64,000 nucleotides of DNA from Halomonas sp. GD1P12 (GTDB taxonomy: Bacteria; Pseudomonadota; Gammaproteobacteria; Pseudomonadales; Halomonadaceae): NCBI RefSeq assembly GCF_025725645.1, contig NZ_CP107007.1:2170001-2234000 (forward strand), in the 5' to 3' direction. Both the position numbers and the translations under genes were made by a program. A model generated the notes under the pieces. That model was not told the origin of the DNA and made no database searches. It saw nothing but the letters and a program-made list of their open reading frames with translations. The stretch's first letter is position 1; every line of letters starts with the position of its first letter. This document shows, in pieces, positions 6,378 to 35,727 of this stretch.

Positions 6378-6426
6378 TGCCCGCCCCGCGCCGGGATGTT
6401 TGATCCTCTGACGAAAAGAACGCCAC

Positions 6427-8036: not shown

Positions 8037-8089
8037 TTGATCCTTATCCTTTCGGCACGCGGCCGAAACGTTCCAACTCAGGAGTAGCC

Positions 8090-18231: not shown

Positions 18232-21200
18232 ATGACACACGCTACCTCTTTCACCAAAGTTTTGATCGCCAACCGCGGCGCCATCGCGACACGGCTTTTG
18301 CGCACGCTGCACCGCCTCGGTATCCAGAGCGTCGTCGTATATGCCGACGCCGACCGCGACGCCCCGTACGTCCACCAGGCCGATGAGGCATATTCACTCG
18401 GCGAAGGCGGCGCCACCGACACCTACCTCGCTATCGATAAACTGATCGCCATCGCCCGCCAGAGCGGCGCCCAAGCGGTGCACCCGGGCTACGGTTTTTT
18501 ATCCGAAAATACCCGCTTTATCGAGGCCTGCGACGCTGCAGGCATTACGTTTCTCGGCCCGACCGCCGAGCAGATTCGCCAGTTCGGTTTGAAGCACGAA
18601 GCGCGCGCGCTGGCCGAACGCGCCGGCGTACCACTGGTGCCGGGATCAAAGCTTCTGAAAAGTCTCGATGAGGCACACGCCAGCGCCGAGCGTATCGGCT
18701 ACCCGGTAATGCTCAAATCTACCGCCGGCGGCGGCGGCATCGGCATGCAGGTTTGCCGCGACCCGGCCGAGCTCTCCCGCGCGTTTGAGTCGGTCAAGGG
18801 GCTGGGTGAGCGCAACTTCGGCGACGACGGCGTGTTTCTGGAAGCCTATATCGCCAGCGCCCGCCACTTGGAGGTGCAGCTTTTTGGCGATGGCAGGGGT
18901 ACGGTCATCGCACTCGGCGAGCGCGACTGCTCCACTCAGCGCCGCCATCAGAAGGTAATCGAAGAGTGCCCGGCACCCAACCTGCCCGAGTCTGTGCGTC
19001 AGGCGCTGCACGCCACCGCAGTCAAACTGGGCGAAGCCGTCGCCTACCGTAGCGCCGGCACTGTCGAGTTCATCTACGATACCAACCGTGAAGCCTTCTA
19101 CTTTCTCGAGGTCAACACCCGCCTGCAGGTCGAGCACGGCGTCACCGAGCTGGTGTACGGCGTCGACATCGTAGAGTGGATGGTGCGGCTGGGCGCGGGC
19201 GAAGCGCTCGACTTGAAAGCACTGGCCGCCGCGCTCGCCCCTCTCGGCCACGCCATGCAAGTACGCCTCTACGCCGAAGACCCGGCCCACGACTTCCGCC
19301 CAAGTGCAGGGCTTCTTACCGAGGTTCACTTCCCAGAGCGCGCCGGGCTCCGGGTCGATCACGCCATCGAATCGGGGCTGGAGGTCTCAGCGCTATTCGA
19401 TCCGATGCTCGCCAAGGTGATGGTGCACACCGACAGTCGCGAACACGCCATCAAGGAGCTCGCCGCCACCCTCGAAGCATCGTCAGTGTATGGCATCGCT
19501 ACCAACCGCACTTGGCTCTCTCACGTGCTGCGCGCCGAGCGCTTCAAGACGGCTGCCATCGACACCCACTGGCTGACCACGCTGGACTGGGCGCCGCCGG
19601 CCATCGAGGTGCTGGCGCCGGGAACGCTGACCACGATTCAGGACCACCCGGGCCGCCAGGGCCACTGGGACGTGGGCGTGCCACCCTCAGGTCCCTTCGA
19701 TGACTGGTCGTTTCGCCTGGGCAACCGCCTGCTCGACAACCCAGCCGAAGCCGCCGGGCTCGAGATTACTCTCAACGGCCCGACCCTGCGCTTTCATCGC
19801 GCCACGCAAATCGTGCTGGCCGGCGCACCGCTTTCCGCCTCGCTCGACGGCAACCCGGTAGATTTCTGGCAGGTACTGGACGTACCGGCCGGCGCCACCC
19901 TGGCCCTTGGCAAGGCCAGTGCCGGCGCACGCGCCTACGTGCTGGTGCGCGGAGGCATCGACTGCCCACGCTATCTGGGCTCGCGCAGCACTTTCACCCT
20001 GGGCCAGTTCGGCGGCCACGGCGGGCGGGCACTACGCAGCGGCGACCTGCTGGATCTGCCTGCACTCGAACCCACGTCTCACCAGACGCTGGACCCCGCA
20101 CTGATACCTGCCATCGACGACCCGGCCAGCGTGGTCGAAATCGCGGTGCTTTACGGCCCCCACGGCGCGCCGGACTTTTTTACCGACCAGGATATCGAGC
20201 AGTTCTTCGCTCACGAGTGGGAAGTGCACTACAACTCGAGCCGCACCGGCGTGCGCCTGATTGGCCCGCGTCCGGAGTGGGCGCGTACGGACGGCGGCGA
20301 GGCGGGTCTACACCCCTCCAACATTCACGACAACGCCTATGCCTTTGGCACCATCGACTTCACCGGCGACATGCCCGTAATTCTGGGCCCGGATGGCCCA
20401 TCGCTTGGCGGCTTCGTCTGCCCGGCGACCGTCGTGCGCGCCGAGCGCTGGAAGCTGGGCCAGCTCACCGCCGGAAGCAAGGTACGCTTCGTGCCGGTCA
20501 CGCTCGAAAGCGCCCGCGCACTCGATGAACGCCAGTGCGAGCAGCTCGCCTCGCTCAGCGCCGCCGGCCAGATCGATATCGAGCGCGACGCCTCGAGCCC
20601 GATCCTGCGCGAGGTTGGCGCCGAGCAGGCCGGCGAGCGCATCGTCTACCGTCGCGCGGGAGATGACTTCCTGCTGATCGAGTTTGGCCCCATGACGCTG
20701 GACATCGCCCTGCGCTTTCGCGCCCATGCCTGGATGCTCTGGCTGCGCGAACATACCCTGCCCGGACTCATGGAGCTGACGCCCGGCATCCGCTCGCTGC
20801 AGGTTCACTACGATCCAAATACCCTGAGCCTTGCAGCGCTACTTGCGCACTTGGCCCGCGCCGAGCACGAACTTGCCGACATCGAATCGCTCGAGGTCGA
20901 ATCCCGCGTGGTGCATCTGCCGCTCTCCTGGGACGACCCGGCCTGCCAAGAGGCGATCGACAAGTATCAGCGCAGCGTGCGCCCTGACGCACCCTGGTGT
21001 CCGAGTAACCTGGATTTCATCCGCCGCATCAACGCGCTCGACAGCGAGCAGCAGGTGCGCGACATCGTCTTCAACGCCCGCTATCTGGTCATGGGGCTGG
21101 GGGATGTCTATCTGGGCGCGCCGGTCGCCACGCCGCTCGACCCGCGCCAGCGTCTGGTAACCACCAAGTACAACCCGGCGCGCACCTGGACGGCGGAAAA

Positions 21201-21855
21201 CTCCGTCGGCATCGGCGGCGCCTATCTATGCGTCTACGGTATGGAAGGGCCCGGGGGCTATCAGTTCGTCGGCCGAACGCTTCAGATGTGGAATCGTTAC
21301 CGCACGACCGAGCACTTTACGAACCCGTGGCTGCTGCGCTTTTTTGATCAGTTGAGCTTTTACGACGTTAGCCATGACGAACTGATGCAAATTCGTCGCG
21401 ATTTCCCCCATGGCCGCTTTGATCTTTCCATCGAAACCACTCGCTTTCGCTTGGCCGACTACCAGGCCGAAATCGACAAGAACGTCGAGGCCATCGAGGC
21501 GTTTCGCCGCAAGCGCGACGAAGCGTTCCAGGCCGAAATGGCCGCCTGGCGCGCCAACGGACAGTTCACCTTCGAGGATCAGGTGCCCGCCAGCGCCGAG
21601 GTGGGAGCGCTCGATGAAAATGAGCGGGGCGTCGAAAGCCCGGTGACGGGCAGCCTATGGAGACTGCTGGTGAAACAGGGCGACCTGGTGGAAGCGGGCC
21701 AGCCCGTGGCACTGGTCGAATCCATGAAGATGGAAGTAGAGATCAGCGCTCAAAGCGCCGGACGCGTGGCTCGCTTACCCCTGGCCGAAGGAGGCGCGGT
21801 GGCGCCGGGCCAGCCGTTGATCGTTCTCGAGGACCCGGTGGATGTCGACTCATAA
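18232..21855 (+). CDS. Biotin-dependent guanidine (urea-type) carboxylase
   Basis: Large carboxylase of 1207 residues. In order: biotin carboxylase (about 1-450; ATP-grasp with GGGGIGMQ and HQKVIEECP), KipA/AHS2-like domain (about 460-770; GPFDDWSFRLGNRLLDN), KipI/AHS1-like domain (about 790-1000) and a C-terminal biotin carrier domain with ESMKMEVE, biotinylated lysine K1166. It uses ATP and bicarbonate to carboxylate an amide-type nitrogen. Homologues are named urea carboxylase, but the guanidine-I riboswitch and the DUF1989 pair point to guanidine giving carboxyguanidine. The ribosome site is weak. Confidence 0.93.
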   Translation: MTHATSFTKVLIANRGAIATRLLRTLHRLGIQSVVVYADADRDAPYVHQADEAYSLGEGGATDTYLAIDKLIAIARQSGAQAVHPGYGFLSENTRFIEACDAAGITFLGPTAEQIRQFGLKHEARALAERAGVPLVPGSKLLKSLDEAHASAERIGYPVMLKSTAGGGGIGMQVCRDPAELSRAFESVKGLGERNFGDDGVFLEAYIASARHLEVQLFGDGRGTVIALGERDCSTQRRHQKVIEECPAPNLPESVRQALHATAVKLGEAVAYRSAGTVEFIYDTNREAFYFLEVNTRLQVEHGVTELVYGVDIVEWMVRLGAGEALDLKALAAALAPLGHAMQVRLYAEDPAHDFRPSAGLLTEVHFPERAGLRVDHAIESGLEVSALFDPMLAKVMVHTDSREHAIKELAATLEASSVYGIATNRTWLSHVLRAERFKTAAIDTHWLTTLDWAPPAIEVLAPGTLTTIQDHPGRQGHWDVGVPPSGPFDDWSFRLGNRLLDNPAEAAGLEITLNGPTLRFHRATQIVLAGAPLSASLDGNPVDFWQVLDVPAGATLALGKASAGARAYVLVRGGIDCPRYLGSRSTFTLGQFGGHGGRALRSGDLLDLPALEPTSHQTLDPALIPAIDDPASVVEIAVLYGPHGAPDFFTDQDIEQFFAHEWEVHYNSSRTGVRLIGPRPEWARTDGGEAGLHPSNIHDNAYAFGTIDFTGDMPVILGPDGPSLGGFVCPATVVRAERWKLGQLTAGSKVRFVPVTLESARALDERQCEQLASLSAAGQIDIERDASSPILREVGAEQAGERIVYRRAGDDFLLIEFGPMTLDIALRFRAHAWMLWLREHTLPGLMELTPGIRSLQVHYDPNTLSLAALLAHLARAEHELADIESLEVESRVVHLPLSWDDPACQEAIDKYQRSVRPDAPWCPSNLDFIRRINALDSEQQVRDIVFNARYLVMGLGDVYLGAPVATPLDPRQRLVTTKYNPARTWTAENSVGIGGAYLCVYGMEGPGGYQFVGRTLQMWNRYRTTEHFTNPWLLRFFDQLSFYDVSHDELMQIRRDFPHGRFDLSIETTRFRLADYQAEIDKNVEAIEAFRRKRDEAFQAEMAAWRANGQFTFEDQVPASAEVGALDENERGVESPVTGSLWRLLVKQGDLVEAGQPVALVESMKMEVEISAQSAGRVARLPLAEGGAVAPGQPLIVLEDPVDVDS

Positions 21856-21910
21856 GCGTTACGCATGCAACACCGCCTCGACACCCACTCCATCACCCAA
21901 GGAGCCGCTC

Positions 21911-23731
21911 ATGACCGCCTTGCGCCCGCTGGACATCAAAAGTCTTCATCAAGCCTATTCAAGCGGTGAGCTGACGCCTGCCAGCTTGATCGACGAGTTG
22001 TTGGACCAGGCTGAACGTCTCGGTCCAAATTCCGCCTGGATCACTCGCCTAACCCGCGAGCAGTTAACGCCCTACCTTCAGAAGCTAGAGGAAGAGTCTC
22101 CCGCTACGTTGCCGCTTTACGGCGTTCCGTTTGCCATCAAGGATAATATCGATCTGGCGGGCGTACCCACTACGGCGGGAAGCCCTGCCTACGCCTACAC
22201 GCCTGACGAGCACGCCTTCGTGGTCCAACAGTTGATCGATGCCGGGGCCCTTCCCTTGGGCAAGACCAACCTGGACCAGTTTGCCACAGGGCTGGTGGGT
22301 GAACGGGCGCTGGATGTGTACGGCACACCGGCCAACGCCTTCGACCCGACATTCATTCCCGGTGGCTCCAGTAGTGGTTCGGCGGTGGTGACCGCGGCGG
22401 GTATGGTGAGCTTTGCGCTGGGCACCGATACCGCGGGCTCGGGGCGCGTGCCCGCCTGTTTCAACAACCTTTACGGCGTCAAGCCGAGCCTTGGGCTTCT
22501 GAGCACCCGCGGCGTCGTCCCTGCCTGCGCCACGCTCGATACCATTAGCCTGTTTACCCTGACCTGCGACGACGCCGCCGCTCTGCTGGCGCTAACTGCG
22601 GTGTACGACGAGCAGTGCGCTTGGTCGCGTCGCTTCGATTTCGCCGTGCAGGGCCAACGCTACGGTCAGCCGCCTGCGGCGTTTCGTTTCGGGGTGCCGC
22701 TAGAATCACAGTGGCAGACCGATGCGGCCTATACCCAAGGCATGCACCAGGCGATTACAAAGCTTGAAGCGCTGGGCGGTGAAAAGGTCGAGCTCGACTG
22801 TACTCCGCTTCTGGCCGCTGCCCGCCTACTCTACGAAGGACCTTGGGTCGCCGAGCGCTACCATGTGATCCAAAAGCTCATGGCCGAAAGCCCAAAGGCC
22901 GTGCATCCAGTGACGTTTCAGATCACCCAGGGCGGAGCAACGCCGCTGGCGGTGGACGCCTTCGATGCTCGCTACAAGCTCGCCGAATACAAACGTCAGG
23001 CCGATGCGTTGATCCAGCAAGTAGACGTCATGCTCTCACCGACGACCGTCACGCATCCGAGTAAGGCCGAGGTCGCCAAGGATCCGATCGGCGCCAATTC
23101 GCGCCTGGGTATTTGGACCAACTTCATGAATCTTCTGGACTACAGCGCGCTGGCCGTGCCGATCGGTTTTACCGAGCGCGAGTTGCCGGTAGGCGTGACG
23201 CTCTTCGGTCCGGCCTTCGCCGACCTGCAGCTTTTGTCGCTGGCGCGCGCACTCGAGGCGCGCACTCGGCTTCCGCTGGGCGCCAGCGGAATCGAGAGAC
23301 CCGCCATCGAGCCACTGGCGACACCGGCTCAAAACGGCACCATGGAGATCGTGGTCTGCGGCGCGCACCTGGAAGGGCTGCCGCTCAATCATCAGTTGAC
23401 CGAGCGCGGCGGTATCAAGGTGGAGAGCACCCAAAGCGCACCGCGTTACAAGCTCTATGCCCTTGCCGGCGGGCCACCCGCGCGCCCGGCGATGGTGCGC
23501 GATGAGCAGGGCCAAGCGATCGAGGTGGAAGTATGGCGCCTGCCCATCGATACCGTAGGCAGTTTCCTGGCGGGCATCCCCGTCCCGCTGGGCCTTGGCC
23601 AGGTCGAGCTCGCGGACGGAAGCTGGAAGTGCGGCTTCATCTGCAGCGCCGGCGCGCTCAACGAGCCCGGCCCCGCCAGGGACGTGAGTGATTACGGCGG
23701 CTGGCGGGGGTGGTTGAAGCAAGCGAAATAA
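21911..23731 (+). CDS. atzF: Allophanate hydrolase
   Basis: Amidase-signature enzyme of 606 residues that splits allophanate into two ammonia and two CO2, the final step of the pathway. The Ser-cisSer-Lys triad is K77 (in FAIKDNID), S153 (in GGSSSGS) and S177 (in TDTAGSG). After the amidase domain (about 1-450) comes the separate C-terminal domain (about 475-600; VVCGAHLEGLPLNHQL) seen in AtzF and DUR1,2. ATG 21911 follows AAGGAG at good spacing; an in-frame start at 21842 overlaps the carboxylase gene and adds 23 unlike residues. Confidence 0.95.
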   Translation: MTALRPLDIKSLHQAYSSGELTPASLIDELLDQAERLGPNSAWITRLTREQLTPYLQKLEEESPATLPLYGVPFAIKDNIDLAGVPTTAGSPAYAYTPDEHAFVVQQLIDAGALPLGKTNLDQFATGLVGERALDVYGTPANAFDPTFIPGGSSSGSAVVTAAGMVSFALGTDTAGSGRVPACFNNLYGVKPSLGLLSTRGVVPACATLDTISLFTLTCDDAAALLALTAVYDEQCAWSRRFDFAVQGQRYGQPPAAFRFGVPLESQWQTDAAYTQGMHQAITKLEALGGEKVELDCTPLLAAARLLYEGPWVAERYHVIQKLMAESPKAVHPVTFQITQGGATPLAVDAFDARYKLAEYKRQADALIQQVDVMLSPTTVTHPSKAEVAKDPIGANSRLGIWTNFMNLLDYSALAVPIGFTERELPVGVTLFGPAFADLQLLSLARALEARTRLPLGASGIERPAIEPLATPAQNGTMEIVVCGAHLEGLPLNHQLTERGGIKVESTQSAPRYKLYALAGGPPARPAMVRDEQGQAIEVEVWRLPIDTVGSFLAGIPVPLGLGQVELADGSWKCGFICSAGALNEPGPARDVSDYGGWRGWLKQAK

Positions 23732-23840: not shown

Positions 23841-24872
23841 CTAGCGCACGGCGGGCAAATTCTCCGAAAAATAGATTTCCATGGCCACGGTGCCGGTGGT
23901 TTCAGCCATTTCGCCGCTGGCGATCTCCATCGCGCGGGCGTAGATGGCGCTGGGGCTTTGGGTGATGACCATGTCCATTGTCCCGTCCACCAGCATGGTG
24001 CGCGTATCCGGCGTGAGCCCGTGGCCCATGAAGTAGACCTCCTTGTCTCGTCTCGATTCTCGCAGGGCGCGGCCGATACCGTCGGAGGAGCCGCCCACGT
24101 TGTAGATACCCACGATATCCGAATGCTTGGCCAACAGGCGGCTTGCGTTAACGTAGTTTTCATCCCGATTGTCGTGACCTTCCTGGGGGCCGATCACCGT
24201 CAGGTGGGGAAAGCTCTCTTCGATCAGCGCCAGAAAGCCCATTTCGCGCTCCATGTGAGCGCGGTAGGCGCGGCTTGCGGCCACCAGCGCCACCTTTCCC
24301 GAGGCGGCGCGGCAAAAACGCCCCATCACTTTGGCGGCCGTGCGCCCGGCGGCGAAGTTATCGATGCCGATGTAGGCGTTTCGACTCGAGGTAGGCAAGT
24401 CGGAAATGATGGTCACCACCCGCTTGCCAAGACTGGTCAACTCGTCGATCACCTGGCGCACTCTGGGGTGCTCAATGGCCATGAAAACCACCACATCCGA
24501 GGGTTTTCCGTAGCGGCGCAGCGCCTGTACCAGCGCTTCGGGATCAAAACTTTCGATGAAGTGGCTGCTGACTTTCAAGGGTTCGACGGAGAGCTTGGCC
24601 ATTTCGCGAACGTAGCGGTTGAGCCCGGTGAGATAGGGATTGCTGCCCTGAGGCAATAGAAAGACCACCTTGGCGAAAGTGGGTCCGAGCCGCCGGTTCA
24701 TGTCCGCTGCGTCCAGATAGCCCACCTCGACGGCGGCCTTGAGTACTCGGGTCAGCGTCACCTTTCGCACGCCAGGGCGACGATTGAGCACGCGATCCAC
24801 GGTTGCCGTCGACACCCCGGCGGCAGAGGCGATATCAGGAATCAGCGGGCGTTTTACATCAAAAACCATCAT
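23841..24872 (-). CDS. LacI-family transcriptional regulator with sugar-binding-protein-like sensor domain
   Basis: Regulator of 343 residues with an N-terminal helix-turn-helix (DIASAAGVSTATVDRVLNRR) and a periplasmic-binding-protein type sensor (about residues 60-340). Start ATG 24872 follows GAGG at good spacing. It is divergent from the TRAP transporter and acid-sugar genes, the usual position for a regulator that senses the substrate or a phosphorylated intermediate of that pathway. The operator is not obvious; the 108-bp gap to dctP must hold both promoters. Confidence 0.9.
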   Translation of the reverse strand: MMVFDVKRPLIPDIASAAGVSTATVDRVLNRRPGVRKVTLTRVLKAAVEVGYLDAADMNRRLGPTFAKVVFLLPQGSNPYLTGLNRYVREMAKLSVEPLKVSSHFIESFDPEALVQALRRYGKPSDVVVFMAIEHPRVRQVIDELTSLGKRVVTIISDLPTSSRNAYIGIDNFAAGRTAAKVMGRFCRAASGKVALVAASRAYRAHMEREMGFLALIEESFPHLTVIGPQEGHDNRDENYVNASRLLAKHSDIVGIYNVGGSSDGIGRALRESRRDKEVYFMGHGLTPDTRTMLVDGTMDMVITQSPSAIYARAMEIASGEMAETTGTVAMEIYFSENLPAVR

Positions 24873-24980
24873 GAATTCCTCATTGCCCAAGCACCCCGAG
24901 CTGCCCTAGCCTCAAACCTGCGGGTGGGTGAAAAACGCCTGGCTGCAAAACAATAAAAAACCATCAGCAGGAGAATAACA

Positions 24981-25985
24981 ATGCTAGCCAAACTGGTACG
25001 CACTAGCCATCTCACGTTACTGGCCGGCGCTCTCGGATTGAGCGTTGCCACTGCCTCGGCTCAGGAAGTCACGCTGCGCTACGGGCACATGCACACGCCC
25101 ACCTCCATCGCCGGCATGCAGGCCGAATGGCTGGCAGAGGCCATCGAGGAGAAAACAGGCGGCGAGGTGAGCGTCGAAATGTACCCGAACTCCCAGCTTG
25201 GTCGGCTTCAGGAGCTTGCCGAGGCGGTCTCGACGGGGTCAATTGCGCTCTCCCATAACACCGCCGGCGCTATTGGCTCGCTCTATGCCCCCTTCGCCGC
25301 CTTTGATACACCCTACCTTTATCGTGATGTCGATCACCTGATGGCGGTGATGGATGTCGACTCGCCGGTCATGAGCGAGCTCAACGAGGAGCTCGCCGCG
25401 GCCTCCGGCGTGCGCCTTCTTTACGCTTTCTATTTCGGCACCCGTCACCTGACGGCGAATCAGGAAATTCTGACGCCCGAGGATCTCGACGGCGTCAAGA
25501 TTCGCTCGATCCCCTTCCCCATCTATATGGCCACCGTCGAAGGCATGGGTGCCATTCCGGTGCCCGTCGACTGGTCGGAAGTGCCCACTGCGCTTGCCAC
25601 CGGCGTGGTCGAGGGGCAGGAGAATCCGGTCAACGTCGTAGTCACCGCCAAGCTCAACGAAGTGCAGAGTCATCTGATGCTGACCGGCCACATCAGCGCC
25701 GCCCAAGTCGTTGTGGTCAGTGACGATACCTGGCAGTCGCTGTCGCCGGAAAACCAGGCAGCGATCGCCGAAGCCGCTCAGGAAGTACGCCAGCGCGCCA
25801 CCGACGCCATGCTGGAGGCCGAAGCCAGTGACCTTGCAACGCTTGCCGAGGCGGGCATGCAGATCGTCGGGCCGGAGCAGGGGCTGGACGTAGAGGCCTT
25901 TAAAAGCCGCGTTCAAGCGCGCATTGCCGAAGAGTTTGACGAGCAGTACGGCGATCTCTACCAGCTGATTCGCGAAACGCGCTAA
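24981..25985 (+). CDS. TRAP transporter substrate-binding protein (DctP family)
   Basis: Periplasmic receptor of 334 residues for a small organic acid. A signal peptide (LTLLAGALGLSVATASAQ, cleavage after about residue 28) precedes a DctP fold with LRYGHMHTPTS, MYPNSQLG, VKIRSIPFPIY and VVEGQENPVN; the conserved arginine that grips a carboxylate is probably in KIRS. CAGGAG lies upstream. First gene of a run that continues to the DUF1537 kinase, so the ligand is probably an acid sugar. Confidence 0.93.
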   Translation: MLAKLVRTSHLTLLAGALGLSVATASAQEVTLRYGHMHTPTSIAGMQAEWLAEAIEEKTGGEVSVEMYPNSQLGRLQELAEAVSTGSIALSHNTAGAIGSLYAPFAAFDTPYLYRDVDHLMAVMDVDSPVMSELNEELAAASGVRLLYAFYFGTRHLTANQEILTPEDLDGVKIRSIPFPIYMATVEGMGAIPVPVDWSEVPTALATGVVEGQENPVNVVVTAKLNEVQSHLMLTGHISAAQVVVVSDDTWQSLSPENQAAIAEAAQEVRQRATDAMLEAEASDLATLAEAGMQIVGPEQGLDVEAFKSRVQARIAEEFDEQYGDLYQLIRETR

Positions 25986-25988
25986 GCC

Positions 25989-26489
25989 ATGAGCACCGAA
26001 AACACTCTATCGACGCGAAGCCTTGGCCGGCTGACCGAGCTCTGTCTGGGGATCGCGATGACGCTACTCGTCATCATCACAGTACTGGTAGTCGCCCAGG
26101 TCATTGCTCGCAACCTGTTCAACACGGGACTTCCCTGGGCGGACGAGGCGGCGCGCTTTGCGGGCATCTCGATGGTGTATCTGGCCACACCCTACTTGCT
26201 CTTTCACGGCCAGCACGTGGCGGTAACGATGCTGGCGGACGCCCTGTCGGGGGTAAAACGCAGGTTATGCCTGGCATTAGGTGAACTTGCCACCCTCGGC
26301 TTCTGCGCGCTGACGCTCTACGGCTTCTACCGGTTTTTGCTACGCGCCGGGCGCTTCGCCTCACCGGCGCTGAGCATTCCAAACCTGTGGCTCTACATGC
26401 CGGCGCTGGTCAGCATCGCACTGCTGGCAGTGGTCTCGCTTCATCGCCTTTCGCGGCTGGCTCACCGGGAGACACCCTCATGTCCCTGA
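25989..26489 (+). CDS. TRAP transporter small membrane subunit (DctQ family)
   Basis: Four-helix small permease subunit, 166 residues, with the family segment RNLFNTGLPWADEAARFAGISMVYLATPYLLF in part (W-x-DE motif PWADE). Begins 3 bp after dctP and overlaps dctM by 10 bp. It bridges the periplasmic receptor and the large channel subunit. Confidence 0.92.
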   Translation: MSTENTLSTRSLGRLTELCLGIAMTLLVIITVLVVAQVIARNLFNTGLPWADEAARFAGISMVYLATPYLLFHGQHVAVTMLADALSGVKRRLCLALGELATLGFCALTLYGFYRFLLRAGRFASPALSIPNLWLYMPALVSIALLAVVSLHRLSRLAHRETPSCP

Positions 26490-27754
26490 CGCTACTGCTG
26501 ATCTTTGCGGCCAGCCTGCTGTTCGGCGCGCCGGTGGCAGTCAGCCTGGGGCTCTCCGCCGGCGCGGTCATTTTTCTCTATGACCTGCCGTTCACGGTGA
26601 TGGCTCAGCGAGCGATCAATACCCTGGACAGCACGCCGCTTCTGGCGGTACCGCTATTCATACTTGCAGCGTCTCTATTGGGCGCGACCGGCGTCACTAC
26701 GCATCTATTCGAGCTGATGCGCATGGTGGTCGGGCGCATTCGCGGCGGAATGGCCCACGTCAACGTGCTCACCAGCCTGATCTTTTCCGGCATGTCCGGC
26801 GCGGCGCTGGCGGACATCGGCGCGCTTGGCGGCATCCAGATTCGCCAGATGGAGCAACAGGGCTATACCAAACGGTTCGCTGCGGGCCTGACCATCGCCG
26901 CGGCGACGATTGGCCCGATCTTTCCACCCTCGATACCGCTGATCATCTTCGCAACGGCAGCGGAGGTATCGACCATTCGGGCGCTGCTGGCCGGGGTGCT
27001 TCCGGCCATTGTCGTGGCGATCGCGCTGATGGTGCAGATCGGCCTCATGGCAAGGCACTACAAGCTCCCCCGGGACGACGTGCAGCCGAGTCTCGAGGCG
27101 CTGGGTAGAAAAACGCTGATTTCGCTGCCTGCGCTTCTGGCACCGGTGCTGCTGGTGGGCGGCATGATCAGCGGCTACTTCGGGCCAACGGAAGCGGCGG
27201 GCGTCACGACGGCCTACGCCCTGCTGATCGGCGTGCTCGTCTACCGCTCGTTGAGTGTGCGCTCGTTTCTGGAATGTACCCGTGAAACCGTGCTGTCGAC
27301 GGCGAACGTGCTGTTCGTGGTGGCCTCGGCGGCGCTGTTTGCCTGGGTGCTGACCATGGACCGCATCCCGGCCCTGGCCGGCGAGTGGCTTTTGAACGTA
27401 TCGGATAACCCGCTCGTCTTGCTGCTGCTATTGAATCTTCTACTGCTGGTCGTGGGCATGTTTCTGGAGGCGATCGTGGCCATATTGATCATCGCACCGA
27501 TCGTCACCCCGGCACTTTTGCAGGCGGGGGTGGCGCCAGAGCAGCTTGGGGTGGTGTTCGTGCTCAACCTGATGCTCGGACTCTTGACGCCGCCGGTGGG
27601 CATGAGCCTCTACATGGTGTCGATCATCACCAAAATGCCGCTTTCGGAGATCATTCGCGGCGTCGTCCCCTTTTATCTCTCACTTTTCGCAGCCCTGGCG
27701 CTGGTCACTCTGGTGCCCGCCCTGTCCACCTGGTTGCCCAACCTTGTCATGTAG
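26480..27754 (+). CDS. TRAP transporter large membrane subunit (DctM family)
   Basis: Transport-forming subunit of 424 residues with about 11-12 membrane segments. DctM motifs include FGAPVAVSLGLSAG, PLLAVPLFILAASLLG, SGAALADIGALGGIQI, IGPIFPPSIPLIIF and the C-terminal GLLTPPVGMSLYMV. The chosen ATG at 26480 begins the family N-terminus MSLTLLLIF; an upstream in-frame start lies within dctQ and adds a non-homologous stretch. Sodium-driven uptake is typical of this family and suits a halophile. Confidence 0.94.
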   Translation: MSLTLLLIFAASLLFGAPVAVSLGLSAGAVIFLYDLPFTVMAQRAINTLDSTPLLAVPLFILAASLLGATGVTTHLFELMRMVVGRIRGGMAHVNVLTSLIFSGMSGAALADIGALGGIQIRQMEQQGYTKRFAAGLTIAAATIGPIFPPSIPLIIFATAAEVSTIRALLAGVLPAIVVAIALMVQIGLMARHYKLPRDDVQPSLEALGRKTLISLPALLAPVLLVGGMISGYFGPTEAAGVTTAYALLIGVLVYRSLSVRSFLECTRETVLSTANVLFVVASAALFAWVLTMDRIPALAGEWLLNVSDNPLVLLLLLNLLLLVVGMFLEAIVAILIIAPIVTPALLQAGVAPEQLGVVFVLNLMLGLLTPPVGMSLYMVSIITKMPLSEIIRGVVPFYLSLFAALALVTLVPALSTWLPNLVM

Positions 27755-27762
27755 GAAACGTC

Positions 27763-28308
27763 ATGAGCCAATATCTTGGAGCGCTTCGCCAACTGGGTTA
27801 CGTGGTCACCGATATCGAAAAAGCCATGGCCTACTGGACCGATGTGATGGGCGTGGGGCCCTTTTTCTACAACCCTCGCGTGCCGATCGAAAACTATCTC
27901 TACGAAGGGGAACATTACGAGGTGCACAACTCGGTGGCGTTGGCCAACGCCGGCTTCATTCAGGTAGAGCTGATCCAGGCGCGCAACGATGCTCCCTCGA
28001 TGTACCGCGATTTTCTTGAAGCGGGTAACACGGGCCTGCAGCACGTTGCGTTCTGGACCGAAACCTTTGATGCGGATCTGGCCGCCATGCAGGCTCGCGG
28101 CTATCGCGTCAAGATGAGCGGCGAAGTGGGCCGTAACGGCCGTTTCGTCTATTTCGACCGCGAGTACCACCCGGGCACCGTCATCGAGCTTTCCGAAGTG
28201 CTCGGCCCCAAGGGACGGATGTTCGAGATGATTCGTGAGGCGTCAGAAAACTGGGACGGCAGCGACCCAATACGTTCTTTCCCCGATCTTTCGGAGCCCC
28301 GGAAATGA
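27763..28308 (+). CDS. VOC-superfamily (glyoxalase-fold) metalloprotein of the acid-sugar operon
   Basis: A 181-residue two-module vicinal-oxygen-chelate protein. The expected metal ligands line up as Q10 (in LRQLGYVV), E69 (in IQVELIQ), H94 (in LQHVAFW) and E142 (in VIELSE), the Q/E/H/E set of eukaryotic glyoxalase I rather than a dioxygenase facial triad. Such enzymes typically catalyse isomerisation or epimerisation through an enediolate. It lies 8 bp after dctM and overlaps the RuBisCO-like gene by 4 bp, so it very likely acts in that pathway. The exact reaction is unknown. Confidence 0.85.
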   Translation: MSQYLGALRQLGYVVTDIEKAMAYWTDVMGVGPFFYNPRVPIENYLYEGEHYEVHNSVALANAGFIQVELIQARNDAPSMYRDFLEAGNTGLQHVAFWTETFDADLAAMQARGYRVKMSGEVGRNGRFVYFDREYHPGTVIELSEVLGPKGRMFEMIREASENWDGSDPIRSFPDLSEPRK

Positions 28309-29552
28309 TTCGCGCCACCTATCATCTGGAAACGCCCCTCGACCCGCACCAGGTGGCAGACATGATGGCCGGTGAACAGAGCTGCGCCACTTTCGTCAGG
28401 CTCGAGAGCGAAACCGACGCCCTACGTGAACGCTTCCGGGCGCGCGTGACGAGGCTCGAAGTGCTCGAGGAACGGGAGGCGCCCACGCTTTACAGCGCCT
28501 ATCTGGCGCGCAAAAACGTGCGCGGCCCCTGGAAGAAGGTAGCGGTCGACATCGAGTACCCCGAGGACAACGTCGGGGTGAACCTGCCGACCCTGGCGGC
28601 AACGGTGGCCGGCAATCTGTTCGATCTGGGCGAGCTGACCGGGCTTCGTCTGATGGCGATTGCGCTCACCCCTGAGTACCGCGACCGCTACCCGCGGCCG
28701 GCGCTGGGGGTGGCGGGTACTCGCGAGGCCGTGGGGGCGTTCGAGCGCCCGCTCTTTGGCACCATCCTCAAGCCCAATATTGGCATGACCCCGGAGGAGA
28801 CCGCCGATCTGGTCGAGCGGCTTTGCGAAGCGGGGGTGGATTTCATCAAGGATGACGAAATCGCCGGCAATCTTCCTCACGCCCCGGTCGAGGCGCGGGT
28901 TAGCGCGGTGATGCCGCGCCTCAAACGCTACCAGGAGCGCAGCGGGCGCAACGTCATGGTGGCGTTCAACATCACCGACGAGCTCGACGCCATGCGCCGC
29001 CACGCCGACCACGTCCAAAGAGAGGGCGGCCACTGCGTGATGGCGAGCCTCAACTGGTGTGGGCTCTCGGCGATGCAGACCCTGCGCGCCTCGACGGAGC
29101 TCGCCATTCACGGCCACCGCAACGGTTTCGGCGCTTTCGCCCGCCACCCGGCGCTGGGCATCGACTTCAACGCCTATCAGACGCTTTACCGCCTGACCGG
29201 GATTGATCACATGCACGTGCACGGCATGAACGGCAAGTTCGCCGACGCCACCGAGGAGGTAGCCCAGGCGGCCAAACTGTCGCTCATGCCTCTCGGCGCC
29301 ACCGACGATCGCGTGATGCCGGTGTTCTCCTCGGGCCAGTGGGCGGGCACGCTGCCCTTCACCGTCGACAAGACCCAAAGTGCCGACTTCATGTTTCTTG
29401 CCGGTGGCGGCATTCTAGCCCACCCCGGCGGTGCGGCGGCGGGAGTCGCAAGCCTTAAAGAAGCCTGGCAGAGCATCGAGGCCGGTGAGCCGCTGTCCTG
29501 CACTCACCGTCCGGCGCTGGCCGAGGCGCTCGACTTTTTCGGCAGCCGTTAG
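28305..29552 (+). CDS. RuBisCO-like protein (RuBisCO large-chain family), predicted acid-sugar phosphate enzyme
   Basis: A 415-residue RuBisCO large-chain homologue. By alignment with spinach RuBisCO it keeps E60 (E24), T65 (T29), N123 (N104), K175 (K156), the KDDE metal site with carbamylatable lysine K201 (K182) and D203/E204 (D184/E185), H294/R295 (H271/R272), H327 (H304), K334 (K311) and S379 (S342). K177 is replaced by N158 and W66 by F30. This fits decarboxylase or hydrolase RuBisCO-like proteins such as 3-oxo-isoapionate-4-phosphate decarboxylase (OiaX) better than CO2 fixation; no phosphoribulokinase or small subunit is nearby. The next gene is a DUF1537 kinase. Confidence 0.9.
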   Translation: MIRATYHLETPLDPHQVADMMAGEQSCATFVRLESETDALRERFRARVTRLEVLEEREAPTLYSAYLARKNVRGPWKKVAVDIEYPEDNVGVNLPTLAATVAGNLFDLGELTGLRLMAIALTPEYRDRYPRPALGVAGTREAVGAFERPLFGTILKPNIGMTPEETADLVERLCEAGVDFIKDDEIAGNLPHAPVEARVSAVMPRLKRYQERSGRNVMVAFNITDELDAMRRHADHVQREGGHCVMASLNWCGLSAMQTLRASTELAIHGHRNGFGAFARHPALGIDFNAYQTLYRLTGIDHMHVHGMNGKFADATEEVAQAAKLSLMPLGATDDRVMPVFSSGQWAGTLPFTVDKTQSADFMFLAGGGILAHPGGAAAGVASLKEAWQSIEAGEPLSCTHRPALAEALDFFGSR

Positions 29553-29554
29553 CC

Positions 29555-30772
29555 ATGCGCTACGTCTTCATCGCCGATGACTTTACCGGCGCCTCGGATA
29601 CGCTGGCCACTCTGTGCCGCGCGGGGCTGCGAGCACGGCTCTATCTCGCCCCCCCCACAGTGGACGAGGTGGCCGACCTGGACGCCTTCGGCATCGCCAC
29701 CTCGGCACGCAGCATGGATCAATCGCGCCTTGCCCAAAAGATGCGCCGTTTGGGCGAACAGCTGCGTCCTCACCACCCGGATATTCTTCATCTGAAGGTG
29801 TGCTCCACCTTCGACAGCAGCGAAACGACCGGCAACATCGCCGTTGCGATCAGAGTGCTGAGCGCCGAGCTCAAGCCCGCGACGACGCTGATCATCGGCG
29901 GCCAGCCGAGCCTGGGACGCTATTGCGTCTTCGGGACTCTTTTCGCCAGGGCAAGCGACGGTCACACCTACCGCATCGACCGTCACCCGGTCATGCAGCG
30001 CCATCCGGTCACGCCCATGAACGAGGCGGACCTGCGCCGTCATTTCGACGCCATGGGGCTTGCAAATGTCACGCTGCTCGATCGCGCGAGCCTTGAAAGC
30101 GATCAGGCGCTGCCCGCCGGCCCACTTCTTTGCGACGCTCTGGAGCAGCGGGATCTCGAGCGGATCGGCCAACGTTTTAGCTCCGAGCCCACGCCCCAGC
30201 TCTGGGTCGGGGCGAGCAGCGTCGCCCAGGCGTTGTACCCCGAGCAACGGACGCTGCCTTCCCCCACCCAGCTGCCCGGCCCGCTGCTCGTATTTGCCGG
30301 CAGCCGCTCCGCCGTGACAGCCGAGCAGGTCGCCGCCGTTCGGCAGTTTGAATGCCTTTCGATTTCGACGCGCAGCCTGGCAGATAATGAAAAGCCCGAT
30401 CGCGAACGCATCGCGCGCCGTTTGCAGGAAGGCCAAAGCGTGCTGGTCGCCCTGGACGCCGACACCACCCACGCCATGAGCCCGCTTGAGGTAGCAAAGC
30501 GCTGCGCCGAACTGATCGCCTCGCTGGTGGCGGCCACGCCGGTCGGCACGCTGCTGATTGCCGGGGGCGATACCTCGAGTTTGGCGCTTCGCCAGCTTGC
30601 GCCGAAAAGTATCGATTATCTCGGCCCTTTCGATACCGGCGTTCCCATCTGCGTGGCGAACCTGGCGGACGGGCGTACGCTTCCCGTCATCATGAAAGGC
30701 GGCCAGATGGGCGCGGTGGAGCTATTCGATCGGGCGTTTCGAATGACGCATCAGCAGGGCGAGGCTCCATAA
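29555..30772 (+). CDS. DUF1537 four-carbon acid-sugar kinase family protein
   Basis: A 405-residue kinase of the OtnK/OiaK/LtnK family, which phosphorylates four-carbon acid sugars or 3-oxo acids such as 3-oxo-isoapionate. The N-terminal domain opens with the conserved FIADDFTGASD (D8, D9); the C-terminal nucleotide-binding domain carries GGDTSS and an IMKGGQMGA stretch where relatives have KSGNFG. It begins 2 bp after the RuBisCO-like gene, so kinase and RuBisCO-like protein probably act one after the other. Its last 51 bases overlap the convergent membrane-protein gene. Confidence 0.91.
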   Translation: MRYVFIADDFTGASDTLATLCRAGLRARLYLAPPTVDEVADLDAFGIATSARSMDQSRLAQKMRRLGEQLRPHHPDILHLKVCSTFDSSETTGNIAVAIRVLSAELKPATTLIIGGQPSLGRYCVFGTLFARASDGHTYRIDRHPVMQRHPVTPMNEADLRRHFDAMGLANVTLLDRASLESDQALPAGPLLCDALEQRDLERIGQRFSSEPTPQLWVGASSVAQALYPEQRTLPSPTQLPGPLLVFAGSRSAVTAEQVAAVRQFECLSISTRSLADNEKPDRERIARRLQEGQSVLVALDADTTHAMSPLEVAKRCAELIASLVAATPVGTLLIAGGDTSSLALRQLAPKSIDYLGPFDTGVPICVANLADGRTLPVIMKGGQMGAVELFDRAFRMTHQQGEAP

Positions 30773-31801
30773 AAGCGGCGCCAGCACCCACCGCCACACA
30801 AACCGCACCACGATCAATAAAGGCAGCAGCACGATCAGCCAGATCGCGAACTGGCCAAGCCAGGCGGGCAGGCCCAGCCACTTTGCCAGGTTGGCGCCCA
30901 GGGCGCTGACCAGCGACGGGTGGCGGATCACCACCACGGCGGTGGCGGTGAAGGCAGCTACTTTCGCCACTCGTGGGAGCGTGGCAAAGCGGGCGGTGCC
31001 GGCAAACGCGCCGGAGCGCGCGCCCGCTTGGGCGCCGCGGGCTTCCACGCTGCCTACCCGGGCACCGCGGGCCAAGCGACCGGCGCGCAGTACCTTCACG
31101 GTGCTCGCCATCAGCAAGAGATCGACCCCGGCCCAGCCGACGTCCGCCGCGCCGATCGCCTCGTCGCGGCGCCACTGCCCTTCCAGCCCGCGTACGCAGC
31201 CGGTGAAGAAGTCCCCCACCCCGGTGACGATACGCTCGCCTTGCAGCCAGTGGATGTCACCGCTCGAGTCCACCGCGAACTGGTTCAACAGCGCGTGGCC
31301 ACCTTCACCAAGTAGCGCAATGCCCATCAGTCCGCGCTGATCCGGGCTCCACTCGGCGGTCTCGACCGGCGTGTCATCGGCTTCGTTCCACCAGCGGCTG
31401 GCCTCGCGGTAGCGCTCGCCCAGCCAGTGCCGGGCTTTGAGCGTTGCGACATCGTGTTCGCGATAGTAGGCAATCGGCAACAGCGCCTGCGCCCCGAAGC
31501 GTGCCAGCACGTCCTGAAAAGCGGGAAGATAGGCATAGGCGAGCAGCGCCTCACGGGCGGCGGAGCCAAAACGCTCCAGCGCCAGGTGCGCGTTCATCCA
31601 GAGCGCGGGGGTGTCGGCGTAGTGCAGAAACACCGCGTTGATCTCGGCGCTCTCCTGGACGAGTGACGCGTCGATCGAGGGCAGCGCGCGCTGCGCCTCC
31701 AGCCGTACCAGGCGCGGCTCGAAGGCCTCACTCGAGGCCAGCGCGGTCAGAAACCCGGCAAGCCCCACGGCCAGTGCAAGAATGATGCGTGCCGGGTTCA
31801 T
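30722..31801 (-). CDS. Membrane protein of unknown function
   Basis: Not recognised. The 359-residue product has an N-terminal hydrophobic segment (residues 4-24), a soluble middle that probably faces the periplasm and contains repeated AL-rich helices (YAYLPAFQDVLARFGAQ), a glycine-rich hydrophobic stretch (GVGDFFTGCVRGLEG then GAADVGWAGVDLLLMAS) and two or three C-terminal membrane helices (about 265-345). Its end overlaps the 3' end of the kinase gene on the other strand by 51 bp. A GGAG-type ribosome site precedes ATG 31801. Coding status rests on length and codon pattern. Confidence 0.75.
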   Translation of the reverse strand: MNPARIILALAVGLAGFLTALASSEAFEPRLVRLEAQRALPSIDASLVQESAEINAVFLHYADTPALWMNAHLALERFGSAAREALLAYAYLPAFQDVLARFGAQALLPIAYYREHDVATLKARHWLGERYREASRWWNEADDTPVETAEWSPDQRGLMGIALLGEGGHALLNQFAVDSSGDIHWLQGERIVTGVGDFFTGCVRGLEGQWRRDEAIGAADVGWAGVDLLLMASTVKVLRAGRLARGARVGSVEARGAQAGARSGAFAGTARFATLPRVAKVAAFTATAVVVIRHPSLVSALGANLAKWLGLPAWLGQFAIWLIVLLPLLIVVRFVWRWVLAPLLWSLALLMRHSKRPIE

Positions 31802-31904: not shown

Positions 31905-34067
31905 TTAGAAGTCGTAGCTCAGGGTCGCCATGACGTTGGCGGGCGCGCCCGGCATGTTGAAGGTGTTCACGCCGCCGACCCGGTTGTAGTACTCGCGATC
32001 GAAGATATTGTTGAAGTTCAGCTGGCCGCTGACGTTGTCGTTGAAATCGTAGCCAATCATCGCGTCGAACACGGCGTAGCCCGGCGCCTCGACGCCGCTG
32101 CTCGAGTTGAAGTCGCTCATCGCCGTCATGCCGGCGCCCACGCGCAGTCCGCCAAGCGCCTCGCCGGCAAAATCGTACTGGGTCCAGAGGTTGACGACGT
32201 TTTGTGGCATCAGCAGAAAGATGGCGTCCTCACGATCATCACCACTTTGCTGCACCTCGGTGTCGAGATAGGTGTAGCCGGCGATCACGTCCCACTGGTC
32301 GGTGACGCTGCCGGTGACTTCGAACTCGGCGCCCTGGATGCGCATCTTGCCGATCGGCACTGCGTAGCTTGCGCCGGTATCTGGCGGGGTGCCTGCGCGG
32401 TTATCGTCATACAGCCGGAAGGCGCTGAGTCGGGCGTTGAGGTCGCCGCCCAGGTAGCTACCCTTTACGCCGACTTCGTACTGATCGCCTTCGCGCGGCT
32501 CGATCAGGTTGCCGTCCGGGCCCTCGGCGGTCTGCGGCTTGAACACCTGGGAGTAGCTGGCGTAGAGCGAGTGATTGGCGTCGACGTCGAACACCACCCC
32601 GGCGTAGGGCGTGGCTTCGGTGCCGCTGCGATCCTGGTCATTGTCGGCGGCCAGGTCTTCGAAATCGACGGCGTAGTGGCTCACTCGGGCGCCGGCGATC
32701 AGCGCGAGCGGGTCCACCGGGCGCAGCGTCAGCTTGCCGTAGAGGCCGCTCTCCTCCAGCCGGGTATCGGTATGGGCGTAGCCTCTGCCGGTGGCACGCG
32801 CGGCGCCCAGTACGTCGACGTAGCTTATCTCGTTGAGCTCGCCTCGGGTCACGCGGCTGCCGGTCAGGCTACGCGAACGCCCGGACTCGGTATCGGTATC
32901 GAAGCGCTTGTAGTCGGCGCCGAGCACGAACTCGCTGACGCTATCGAAAGCGGCGAAGGGTTGGCTGTAGCTGGCGTCCAGCGCGACCGCCTGCTGGTCG
33001 ATACGACTGCCGATGCCGGCGACCGTCAGGCGCTCGTTCTGGTCCAGGGCGCTGCCGCCGAAGGCGTAGTTATAGCCGGCGTTACGATCGGAGTAGCGCG
33101 CCGCGAGGCGCCCGAAGCCGCCGCCGTCGAAGCGGTGGGTCAGCTCGGCGATCCAGTCGTTGGCATAGCTGTCGAAATCATTCCAGTTTGCGCCATAGAA
33201 ATCCGAACGCGAGCCGTAGAGCAGTTCGCCGCTGGGCCCGACCGGGTGGCCGTTGTTGACGCGGATGTCCTTGCTGTTGTGAATGTAGCCAAGCCCGAAA
33301 GTGGTCGCGTCATCCAGGTCGACATCGATCGCCGCGTAGATATCGTTCTGGCGATTGGTGTTGCGATCGACGAACTCGCCGTGGTGGGTCCGATCGATCA
33401 CCAGCCGCCCGCGCACGCGGCCGTCATCGCCGTCGATGGGGCCGGAGACGTCCACCTGGGCGGCGCGCTGCTGGTCGGTGCCGGCGCCGACGCTGATACG
33501 CCCTTGCGGGTCATGGGTGGGCCGCTTGCGCACCAGGTTGACGATCCCGCCCATCTCGCTGGTGCTGTTGAAAAGCCCGGACGGCCCGCGCATGATCTCG
33601 ACCCGGTCAAACGCCGCAAGCGTTGGCACCGACCCTGTAATGCTGGTCATCGGCGCGGGCAGCCCATCGATGTTGTACTCGTCATACTCGAAGCCGCGGG
33701 CATAGATCGAAGAGCGGCCGTTGTCGTTGGAGAGCACGCGAAGCCCTGGCGTGCGCCGGCCAAGCTCATCGAGGGTGGTGAAGTTCTGATCCTCGATCGC
33801 CTCACGGGTGACGACGCTGACCGACTGCGGAATGTCACGCAGCGATGCCGGCGTTTTCGTGCCTACCGTGGCGGCATCGACGCTATAACCGCCGGTCACT
33901 TCCGAGGGCAGCATCTGGTAAAGGTGATTGCCCTGAACCGTGACCGTCTCAAGCCGTGTGGCTTCGGCGCTCGCCTGGGCCAGTGCATTCGGTGCCCATC
34001 CCAGCAGCAGCGCAGCGCTGCCCGCGGCGGCCACACCTTGATAAATACGCGCTCTATCGAACGTCAT
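31905..34067 (-). CDS. TonB-dependent siderophore receptor
   Basis: Outer-membrane receptor of 720 residues. A signal peptide ends near PNALAQ (about residue 31); a plug domain with the siderophore-receptor signature (ASLRDIPQSVSVVTREAIEDQ, GLRVLSNDNGRSSIYARGFEY in part, VEIMRGPSGLF) is followed by a 22-strand barrel ending in the aromatic terminus SYDF. It probably takes up a ferric hydroxamate or catecholate siderophore. A Fur-like box and four tandem repeats lie upstream, and an AraC-type gene is divergent, a pattern seen for siderophore-inducible receptors. Confidence 0.94.
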   Translation of the reverse strand: MTFDRARIYQGVAAAGSAALLLGWAPNALAQASAEATRLETVTVQGNHLYQMLPSEVTGGYSVDAATVGTKTPASLRDIPQSVSVVTREAIEDQNFTTLDELGRRTPGLRVLSNDNGRSSIYARGFEYDEYNIDGLPAPMTSITGSVPTLAAFDRVEIMRGPSGLFNSTSEMGGIVNLVRKRPTHDPQGRISVGAGTDQQRAAQVDVSGPIDGDDGRVRGRLVIDRTHHGEFVDRNTNRQNDIYAAIDVDLDDATTFGLGYIHNSKDIRVNNGHPVGPSGELLYGSRSDFYGANWNDFDSYANDWIAELTHRFDGGGFGRLAARYSDRNAGYNYAFGGSALDQNERLTVAGIGSRIDQQAVALDASYSQPFAAFDSVSEFVLGADYKRFDTDTESGRSRSLTGSRVTRGELNEISYVDVLGAARATGRGYAHTDTRLEESGLYGKLTLRPVDPLALIAGARVSHYAVDFEDLAADNDQDRSGTEATPYAGVVFDVDANHSLYASYSQVFKPQTAEGPDGNLIEPREGDQYEVGVKGSYLGGDLNARLSAFRLYDDNRAGTPPDTGASYAVPIGKMRIQGAEFEVTGSVTDQWDVIAGYTYLDTEVQQSGDDREDAIFLLMPQNVVNLWTQYDFAGEALGGLRVGAGMTAMSDFNSSSGVEAPGYAVFDAMIGYDFNDNVSGQLNFNNIFDREYYNRVGGVNTFNMPGAPANVMATLSYDF

Positions 34068-34119
34068 GTCAGCTCTCTCTTGATCCCTTGAAATTGGTCA
34101 CGCAACCGGCGTTTTCTTT

Positions 34120-34138
34120 GCGAATGAGAATACGTTGC
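34120..34138 (-). promoter_or_regulatory. Candidate Fur box
   Basis: The 19 bases GCGAATGAGAATACGTTGC match 11 of 19 positions of the classic Fur box, including the core AATGA and AAT. They lie about 55-70 bp upstream of the receptor start, where iron-dependent repression would be expected. Confidence 0.45.
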
Positions 34139-34204
34139 AATAAAATTCGAGGCAGCGGATTATGGCAGCTCGCAACGCCTTTAACCTTTGCAGGCGCGTC
34201 ATAT

Positions 34205-34268
34205 TGCTATGCGAAAACGTTGCTATGCATAAACGTTGCTACGCGTAAACGGTGCCATGCAGAAACAG
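34205..34268. repeat. Four tandem imperfect 16-bp repeats
   Basis: Units begin at 34205, 34221, 34237 and 34253 and share the consensus TGCYAYGCNNAAACG. The first two differ at two bases; the fourth is the most diverged. They lie between the siderophore receptor and the AraC-type regulator, directly before the regulator's ribosome site. Direct repeats of about this length and spacing suit an AraC-family protein binding as several half-sites. Confidence 0.8.
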
Positions 34269-34306
34269 CCAACCCGGTAAGCGGGCTTACCAACAGGACC
34301 AGGGAC

Positions 34307-35266: not shown

Positions 35267-35353
35267 TTTTTTCCGAACACTCGACCAGACCTTTGCTAAG
35301 CTAAGGCAGCCTCATGGGCCTACCCATTGATCAATTCAGGAGTTGCACGCGCG

Positions 35354-35719: not shown

Positions 35720-35727
35720 GCCGCTTT

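Follow-up and report, generated by a model that had tools for sequence, protein, structure and literature searches.

RuBisCO-like proteins (RLPs) have few known jobs, and one of them is encoded in a compact operon within a 64,000-nucleotide stretch of the Halomonas sp. GD1P12 genome, hereafter the window (positions 2170001-2234000 of the 3.78-Mb genome, G000). The operon comprises a LacI-family regulator gene on the reverse strand and, on the forward strand, dctP-dctQ-dctM, a gene for a vicinal oxygen chelate (VOC) protein, the RLP gene, and a DUF1537 acid-sugar kinase gene, an order confirmed from 24981 to 30772 by the open reading frames (ORFs) and the sequence. Judged by sequence comparison, this gene set is a conserved, real variant of RLP-kinase acid-sugar catabolism in which a VOC protein replaces the oxidoisomerase, and it is uncharacterised in the literature searched.

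From dctP to the kinase gene, the successive spacings are 3, -10, 8, -4, and 2 bp, such that every gap is of at most 8 bp or is an overlap. All seven proteins score above the Pfam cut-offs of their families (Table 1), and the adjacent dctP, dctQ, and dctM genes define a tripartite ATP-independent periplasmic (TRAP) transporter. An alternative TTG start would place the beginning of the LacI gene at 24890. An earlier note on this DNA had described six packed genes with a divergent LacI regulator and had remarked on the lack of an oxidoisomerase or dehydrogenase; the ORF coordinates agree with the former, and the ORF list and Pfam matches place neither a dehydrogenase nor ApnO, the oxidoisomerase of D-apionate catabolism, in the operon.

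Table 1. Features at and around the RLP operon, in coordinates of the window.
Feature	Coordinates	Strand	Remarks
LacI-family regulator (LacI helix-turn-helix + Peripla_BP_4)	23841-24872	-	divergent; ATG start; Pfam
Operator-like direct repeat CATCAAAAACCATCA	24857-24871	+	overlaps LacI start
Weaker second copy of CATCAAAAACCATCA	24952-24966	+	2 mismatches; 14 bases before dctP
DctP, TRAP solute-binding protein, type A	24981-25985	+	Pfam DctP
DctQ, TRAP small permease	25989-26489	+	Pfam DctQ; 3-bp gap after dctP
DctM, TRAP large permease	26480-27754	+	Pfam DctM; 10-bp overlap with dctQ
VOC protein, proposed isomerase	27763-28308	+	Pfam Glyoxalase_4; 8-bp gap after dctM
RLP, VOC clade	28305-29552	+	Pfam RuBisCO_large, RuBisCO_large_N; 4-bp overlap with VOC gene
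DUF1537 acid-sugar kinase	29555-30772	+	Pfam SBD_N, NBD_C; 2-bp gap after RLP gene
Urea carboxylase-type (biotin carboxylase, CT_A_B, CT_C_D) and allophanate hydrolase genes	18232-23731	+	directly upstream
359-residue ORF	30722-31801	-	converges on kinase gene, overlapping its last 51 bases
TonB-dependent receptor (-), AraC-type regulator (+), pyrroloquinoline quinone (PQQ)-dependent dehydrogenase (+)	31905-37749		downstream

An RLP scan of genome contigs confirmed 217 loci, the best 80 of which were kept and 137 left out. In all 80, the RLP (57-81% identity) is accompanied by the VOC protein (67-89%) and the kinase (36-72%), and in 79 a LacI homologue lies upstream on the opposite strand, the remaining locus (L069) beginning inside the operon; thus, the arrangement is not due to chance. 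The nearest loci are those of Halomonas and Vreelandella, and the kept set spans Halomonadaceae, Rhodobacterales, Hyphomicrobiales, Azospirillaceae, Thalassospira, Acetobacteraceae, Burkholderiales, and others. On annotated plasmids, the 18 records with an RLP of at least 55% identity all carry a VOC protein of at least 66%, the next-best matches standing at 49% (RLP) and 47% (VOC); one further plasmid VOC record belongs to Azospirillum thermophilum (L215), discussed below. In alignments of 81 rows, the positions conserved at 97.5% or more number 84 of 181 in the VOC protein, 140 of 415 in the RLP, and 62 of 405 in the kinase, so that conservation is highest in the VOC protein. Beyond the operon genes, no family keeps a constant position beside the RLP in the kept loci. 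Five loci (L050, L082, L177, L178, L210) have an operon extended by a short-chain dehydrogenase/reductase (SDR) gene, and oxidoreductase matches are scattered through the flanks of 17 of the 80, with only that of L050 lying within the operon. The role of the VOC protein would have been incidental had relatives lacked it, as the earlier note had recognized; its constant presence speaks against this and, together with the failure to find ApnO, supports the view that it sits where an oxidoisomerase would in a catabolic operon.

A search of G000 with an ApnO-type protein gave no match, while the same query was positive in 8 of 31 genomes, including those with known ApnO loci, and an ApnO encoded elsewhere in this genome was rejected on that ground. 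The D-apionate enzyme is thus found neither in the operon nor in the genome, and the genomic part of the outcome that the earlier note had named as its undoing did not materialize. (A PGDH_C Pfam search for ApnO was uninformative, its control also lacking a match.) Among 16 VOC-type Halomonadaceae, 12 have no ApnO match and four do (G164, G187, G151, G143). In G143 and G164 (L101, L118), ApnO belongs to another operon, which also encodes a second RLP (48% and 44% identity), and in G187 and G151 ApnO and a second RLP lie within about 5 kb of each other on the same contig. Where both were examined (G143, G164), the VOC and ApnO routes coexist and are not one pathway. Other Halomonadaceae loci (L100, L103, L105, L108) contain TRAP, RLP, and kinase genes, L100, the one of the four that was read, with an NAD-dependent epimerase/dehydratase-family protein at the place of ApnO, and the haloarchaeal plasmids L129 and L084 carry an RLP and a kinase, L129 also an ApnO-like protein and a GntP permease.

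Regulation appears equally self-contained. Allowing at most one mismatch, CATCAAAAACCATCA occurs once in the genome. A degenerate form of the repeat, derived from the VOC loci themselves, was matched in 63 of the 80 kept loci and in 33 of another 36 VOC loci; the 65 loci examined that lack a VOC-RLP operon (1.14 Mb in total) gave no match. The repeat would be the LacI operator and, because it is single in the genome, the regulon would be limited to this operon; accordingly, the check for a distant oxidoisomerase under the same LacI control, which the earlier note had called for, was negative.

The RLP belongs to the RuBisCO superfamily, with a RuBisCO_large domain and K156, K182, D184, E185, and K311 in place, and it also keeps H271, R272, and S343. 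The earlier note had compared the RLP and the kinase with OiaX and OiaK, a comparison that did not hold: against a cut-off of 700 bits in both cases, the RLP scores 377 with the OiaX model (NCBIfam NF042437) and the kinase 182 with the OiaK model (NF042436). Besides, four OiaX rows lack residues common to all 73 other rows, among them E24, N104, H302, and H304 of the window RLP, where all four OiaX rows read D, G, Q, and Q. The two assignments were rejected on the cut-offs and, for the RLP, on these residues as well. We take E24, N104, H302, and H304 to be the counterparts of RuBisCO E60, N123, H325, and H327; the RuBisCO Lys177 position is presumably Asn158 in the window RLP and the Trp66 position Phe30.

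In a tree of 74 rows covering 28 of the 80 kept loci, 37 of 38 VOC-operon RLPs and PDB 3NWR form one clade (support 100/99), hereafter the VOC clade, while RLPs associated with ApnO, an SDR, an epimerase/dehydratase, or a LacI-kinase context fall outside it with their contexts mixed; five changes are needed for the ApnO context and five for the SDR context. No paper in the literature searched, outside which subscription papers mostly fell, joins a VOC protein with a VOC-clade RLP and a kinase or deals with the function of a VOC-clade RLP. Compared with ApnO-linked, non-OiaX RLPs, the window RLP shares the catalytic residues, as SDR-linked RLPs also do, and stands in a separate clade with differences at positions 158, 306, 346, and 349. 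The OiaX loci L212 and L214 and the non-OiaX loci L127, L128, and L131 have ApnO-type, ATP-binding cassette (ABC) transporter, and DUF2291-protein genes in common. We infer that non-OiaX, ApnO-linked RLPs carry the transcarboxylase/hydrolase activity of D-apionate catabolism and that the chemistry of the window RLP is similar to theirs. Of the two reactions that the earlier note had left side by side, hydrolytic C-C cleavage seems more likely and simple decarboxylation is disfavoured, because the RLP keeps catalytic residues that OiaX lacks.

The VOC protein presents a putative metal site, Q10/E69/H94/E142, which is invariant in 63 alignment rows covering 51 of the 80 kept loci; its ligands were placed by sequence alignment to epimerases, with the human set taken from PMC8849047. 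These letters give the predicted Q-E-H-E ligand pattern of the glyoxalase I type, and the methylmalonyl-CoA epimerase model TIGR03081 matches at 30.1 bits against a cut-off of 114.95. Dioxygenases of the fold carry a 2-His-1-carboxylate metal motif, and such an assignment was rejected, as the aligned positions read Q, E, H, and E. Loci L184-L192, which have no RLP or kinase and come from the same bacterial family, encode a further VOC subfamily that is about 50% identical and shares these metal-site letters.

Natural exchanges of modules suggest what the VOC protein makes. Of 265 genomes from a single genus, probably Bradyrhizobium, 19 encode close relatives of it. In 14 of the 19 (L162, L193-L205), the unit of LacI, solute-binding protein (SBP), TRAP, and VOC genes is joined to an RLP 71-75% identical to that of the ApnO-linked locus L131, and in the other five (L206-L210) to an RLP 67-79% identical to that of the VOC-clade locus L037, with L210 having no labelled TRAP permease. 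A second RLP tree of 47 rows places the 14 swapped RLPs in one clade (100/99) within an 18-row group (100/99) completed by L131 and the SDR-linked L160, L085, and L126, and the RLPs of L206-L210 in the VOC clade; the swapped clade itself lies within a larger ApnO-rich group. In a kinase tree of 64 rows covering 13 of the 80 kept loci, the kinase of L162, one of the 14, is sister to that of L131 (98/89). Swapped-type RLP ORFs are 401-413 residues long, except that of L199, called at 318, and a TGA in the L162 match lies, by reading of the alignment, past the end of its 404-residue ORF.

A different back end follows the same front end in Azospirillum thermophilum (L215), where the LacI-SBP-TRAP-VOC unit, with an exact copy of the 15-base CATCAAAAACCATCA, is followed by no RLP and stands beside a DUF1537 kinase, PdxA2, DeoR, and an aldolase. 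Three further loci (L181-L183; VOC identity 60-64%) share PdxA2, DeoR, and the DhnA-type aldolase with L215, and an RLP search of their genomes gave no match above 32% identity. L179 has kept LacI, the SBP, and the VOC protein, and the 16.5 kb read there contain neither an RLP nor a kinase gene; its VOC protein is altered at three conserved sites (N56, R74, N75), and its genome encodes an RLP of 48% identity beside ApnO elsewhere. In a family sample of 295 genomes, 13 have a VOC protein of at least 60% identity; in the 12 examined (G643 was left out), it is found with an adjacent RLP in eight, with the PdxA2 set in three, and with neither in one (L179). On our reading, the front end sets the substrate and the back ends can replace one another, so that all of them should act first on one compound or on closely similar ones. 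The 18-row group of the swapped RLPs holds one ApnO-linked row and three SDR-linked rows. As 3-oxo-isoapionate is what ApnO produces, the VOC protein probably yields this acid or an analogue that carries a different group at C2.

We therefore envisage the operon as a self-contained system for acid-sugar import and breakdown through VOC isomerisation, phosphorylation, and RLP cleavage, a proposal for which we see about as much reason to believe as to doubt. The TRAP transporter would import a small branched hydroxy- or oxo-acid, which the VOC protein, as a metal-dependent proton-transfer enzyme, would isomerise, with no need of NAD, into a 3-oxo-isoapionate-class ketol acid, HOOC-C(OH)(R)-C(=O)-CH2OH. 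The kinase, to judge from its family, would phosphorylate the terminal hydroxyl, and the RLP would then break a C-C bond, likelier by the transcarboxylase/hydrolase route of D-apionate catabolism than by OiaX-type decarboxylation, to give central metabolites, so that the operon could do without an aldolase or dehydrogenase. With R = CH2OH, the products would be 3-phosphoglycerate and glycolate, those of the transcarboxylase/hydrolase RLP of D-apionate catabolism, and the host could perhaps use glycolate, since it encodes a GlcD-like protein (555 bits, just under the cut-off of 568). If the VOC protein does feed the RLP route without oxidation, this would be, as far as we know, a new activity for the VOC superfamily and a fresh entry to the branched acid-sugar metabolism of soil, plant-associated, and marine bacteria, through a testable pathway with exchangeable modules.

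The transporter offers some clues to the imported compound. Of the 80 kept loci, 50 have an SBP of the window type (type A) and 28 a second TRAP type (type B); L073 encodes, from its ORFs, an ABC transporter of the polar amino-acid kind, and L069 is cut. Five loci (L021, L071, L073, L075, L078) yielded no DctM homologue. The AlphaFold2 model of DctP (pLDDT 89.8) has among its structural neighbours 4pdd, 4nq8, 4pdh, 4p9k, and 4xeq, which we take to be erythronate or pantoate binders, and no solved type-A relative with a readable ligand was found. Two type-B SBPs match 4oan at 423 and 433 bits, a structure that presumably holds 2-acetolactate and is modelled with a 2-hydroxy-2-methyl-3-oxo acid. 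In PMC5812351, 2-acetolactate and pantoate/D-erythronate appear among the TRAP ligands of a screen. A direct orthology of 4oan with these SBPs was rejected, as its 84-87% relatives, in the two loci read (L148, L149), sit elsewhere, and for this reason the resemblance is a hint at ligand class only.

Several observations weigh against the proposed pathway. The window DctP is only 26-28% identical to the type-B SBPs and, being of type A, does not directly inherit the 4oan clue, whose nearest relatives lie outside RLP operons in the two loci read. Only one of the rows closest to the swapped RLPs is ApnO-linked, the other three being SDR-linked, and one of the 14 swapped operons (L194, genome G883) has a TAG within its VOC frame. 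At N158, H306, W346, and T349, the VOC-clade RLPs depart from those of the ApnO clade, and the R group may accordingly differ. The same metal-site letters are also seen in VOC proteins encoded at unrelated loci. Lastly, the pairing of the VOC protein with a kinase, PdxA2, DeoR, and a DhnA-type aldolase (L215, L181-L183) fits poorly, because PdxA2 normally oxidises a 3-hydroxyl, a step that a 3-oxo acid does not need; PdxA2 might act there as a decarboxylase, or the VOC product may exist as another isomer.

Alternatively, the 3-oxo acid itself could be imported and acted on directly by the kinase and the RLP, with the VOC protein in a supporting role such as epimerisation, lactone or hydrate handling, or repair. 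The kinship of type-B SBPs with 4oan would suit this, yet the VOC protein is the most conserved enzyme of the operon, persists through two kinds of downstream swap, and is altered at three conserved sites in L179, where the 16.5 kb read showed no RLP or kinase; we regard this explanation as unlikely.

Rather unlikely, in our estimate, is a VOC protein that acts as a ketol-acid isomerase, shifting the hydroxymethyl group of 2-oxo-apionate and thus performing the second half of the ApnO reaction, with the oxidation carried out by a periplasmic dehydrogenase or another organism. ApnO is indeed described as moving a hydroxymethyl group, the VOC protein does stand upstream of RLPs exchangeable for those of the ApnO/SDR-linked clade, and the SDR added in five loci looks as if the oxo level sometimes had to be reached first. 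However, we know of no VOC enzyme with alkyl migration, the chemistry of this fold being, to our knowledge, proton transfer or O2 chemistry, and of no role for 2-oxo-apionate as a common nutrient.

The erythronate and pantoate binders presumed among the DctP neighbours, and the 137 bits that the kinase scores as a 3-oxo-tetronate kinase, could point to a tetronate-type pathway, in which the VOC protein would serve as OtnI (2-oxo to 3-oxo tetronate), the kinase as OtnK, and the RLP as OtnC. We find this improbable: a second tetronate route is less likely because a separate OtnK-OtnC pair is encoded elsewhere in the genome, and the kinase matches OiaK better than OtnK and the RLP is exchangeable for one of the ApnO/SDR-linked clade.

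A further variant, likewise a poor prospect, keeps the VOC protein redox-free and would make it a glyoxalase-I-type aldose-ketose isomerase of a branched 3-C-carboxy aldose, namely apiuronate or aceric acid, a rare sugar of pectin rhamnogalacturonan II. The RLP would then split the phosphorylated ketol acid into 3-phosphoglycerate and either glycolate (from apiuronate) or lactate (from aceric acid). If true, RuBisCO-like catabolism would gain a new point of entry, and aceric acid the first bacterial breakdown route known to us. A hint comes from L130 (Croceibacterium, 6172-10525), where an RLP and a kinase directly follow a GH127-type glycosidase gene in a glycan locus; fucosidase, galactosidase, BNR, and GDSL genes surround them, giving the look of a plant-glycan locus. 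PMC10850190 describes BT1003, of the GH127-type enzyme group, as an aceric acid hydrolase.

The known D-apionate pathway with ApnO encoded elsewhere, suggested by the RLP and kinase families it shares with the operon, is very improbable and already largely refuted by the lack of an ApnO match in G000 and in 12 of 16 VOC-type Halomonadaceae, the separate ApnO operons of the two ApnO-positive genomes read, and the confinement of CATCAAAAACCATCA to this operon.

Among the neighbouring genes, those of the urea carboxylase and allophanate hydrolase give no sign of belonging to the RLP operon. The ORF converging on the kinase gene is without a Pfam match at 1e-10 and has relatives of 67-79% identity in 6 of the 80 kept loci. 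A periplasmic PQQ enzyme, such as the dehydrogenase further downstream may be, could in principle supply an oxo-acid; close relatives (86-92%) lie near the operon in five of the 80 loci only, and a 37% relative in L023.

Among known systems, D-apionate catabolism comes closest. Carter et al. 2018 reportedly described it as clusters of ApnO, a DUF1537 kinase, and an RLP, whether OiaX or not. That work is cited in PMC6302742, and PMC11747546 presents a Rhodobacteraceae strain growing on D-apiose with a cluster of ApnO, kinase, and decarboxylase genes. Like these clusters, the window operon has a DUF1537 kinase beside an RLP that keeps the RuBisCO metal and lysine residues, together with its own regulator and transporter; it differs in having a VOC protein instead of ApnO, LacI and TRAP genes where the OiaX-ApnO loci L212 and L214 have a NanR-type regulator and a ribose-type ABC transporter, and an RLP and kinase that fall below the OiaX/OiaK cut-offs. 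Tetronate pathways (OtnI/OtnK/OtnC; DtnK/PdxA2) share the logic of isomerising or oxidising, phosphorylating, and losing carbon, as well as the DUF1537 kinase, but use an OtnC-type aldolase or PdxA2 and no VOC protein, whereas the window has an RLP and a VOC protein. With glyoxalase I and methylmalonyl-CoA epimerase, the VOC protein shares the fold and four metal-ligand positions; it differs in its operon partners and is at most 26% identical to any listed chain. The nearest solved relative of the window RLP is PDB 3NWR, listed as "a rubisco-like protein" and presumably from Paraburkholderia fungorum, which falls in the same clade, matches over the whole length at 539 bits, and has the same letters at the 25 active-site positions compared; the operon thus defines an RLP clade with a solved structure.

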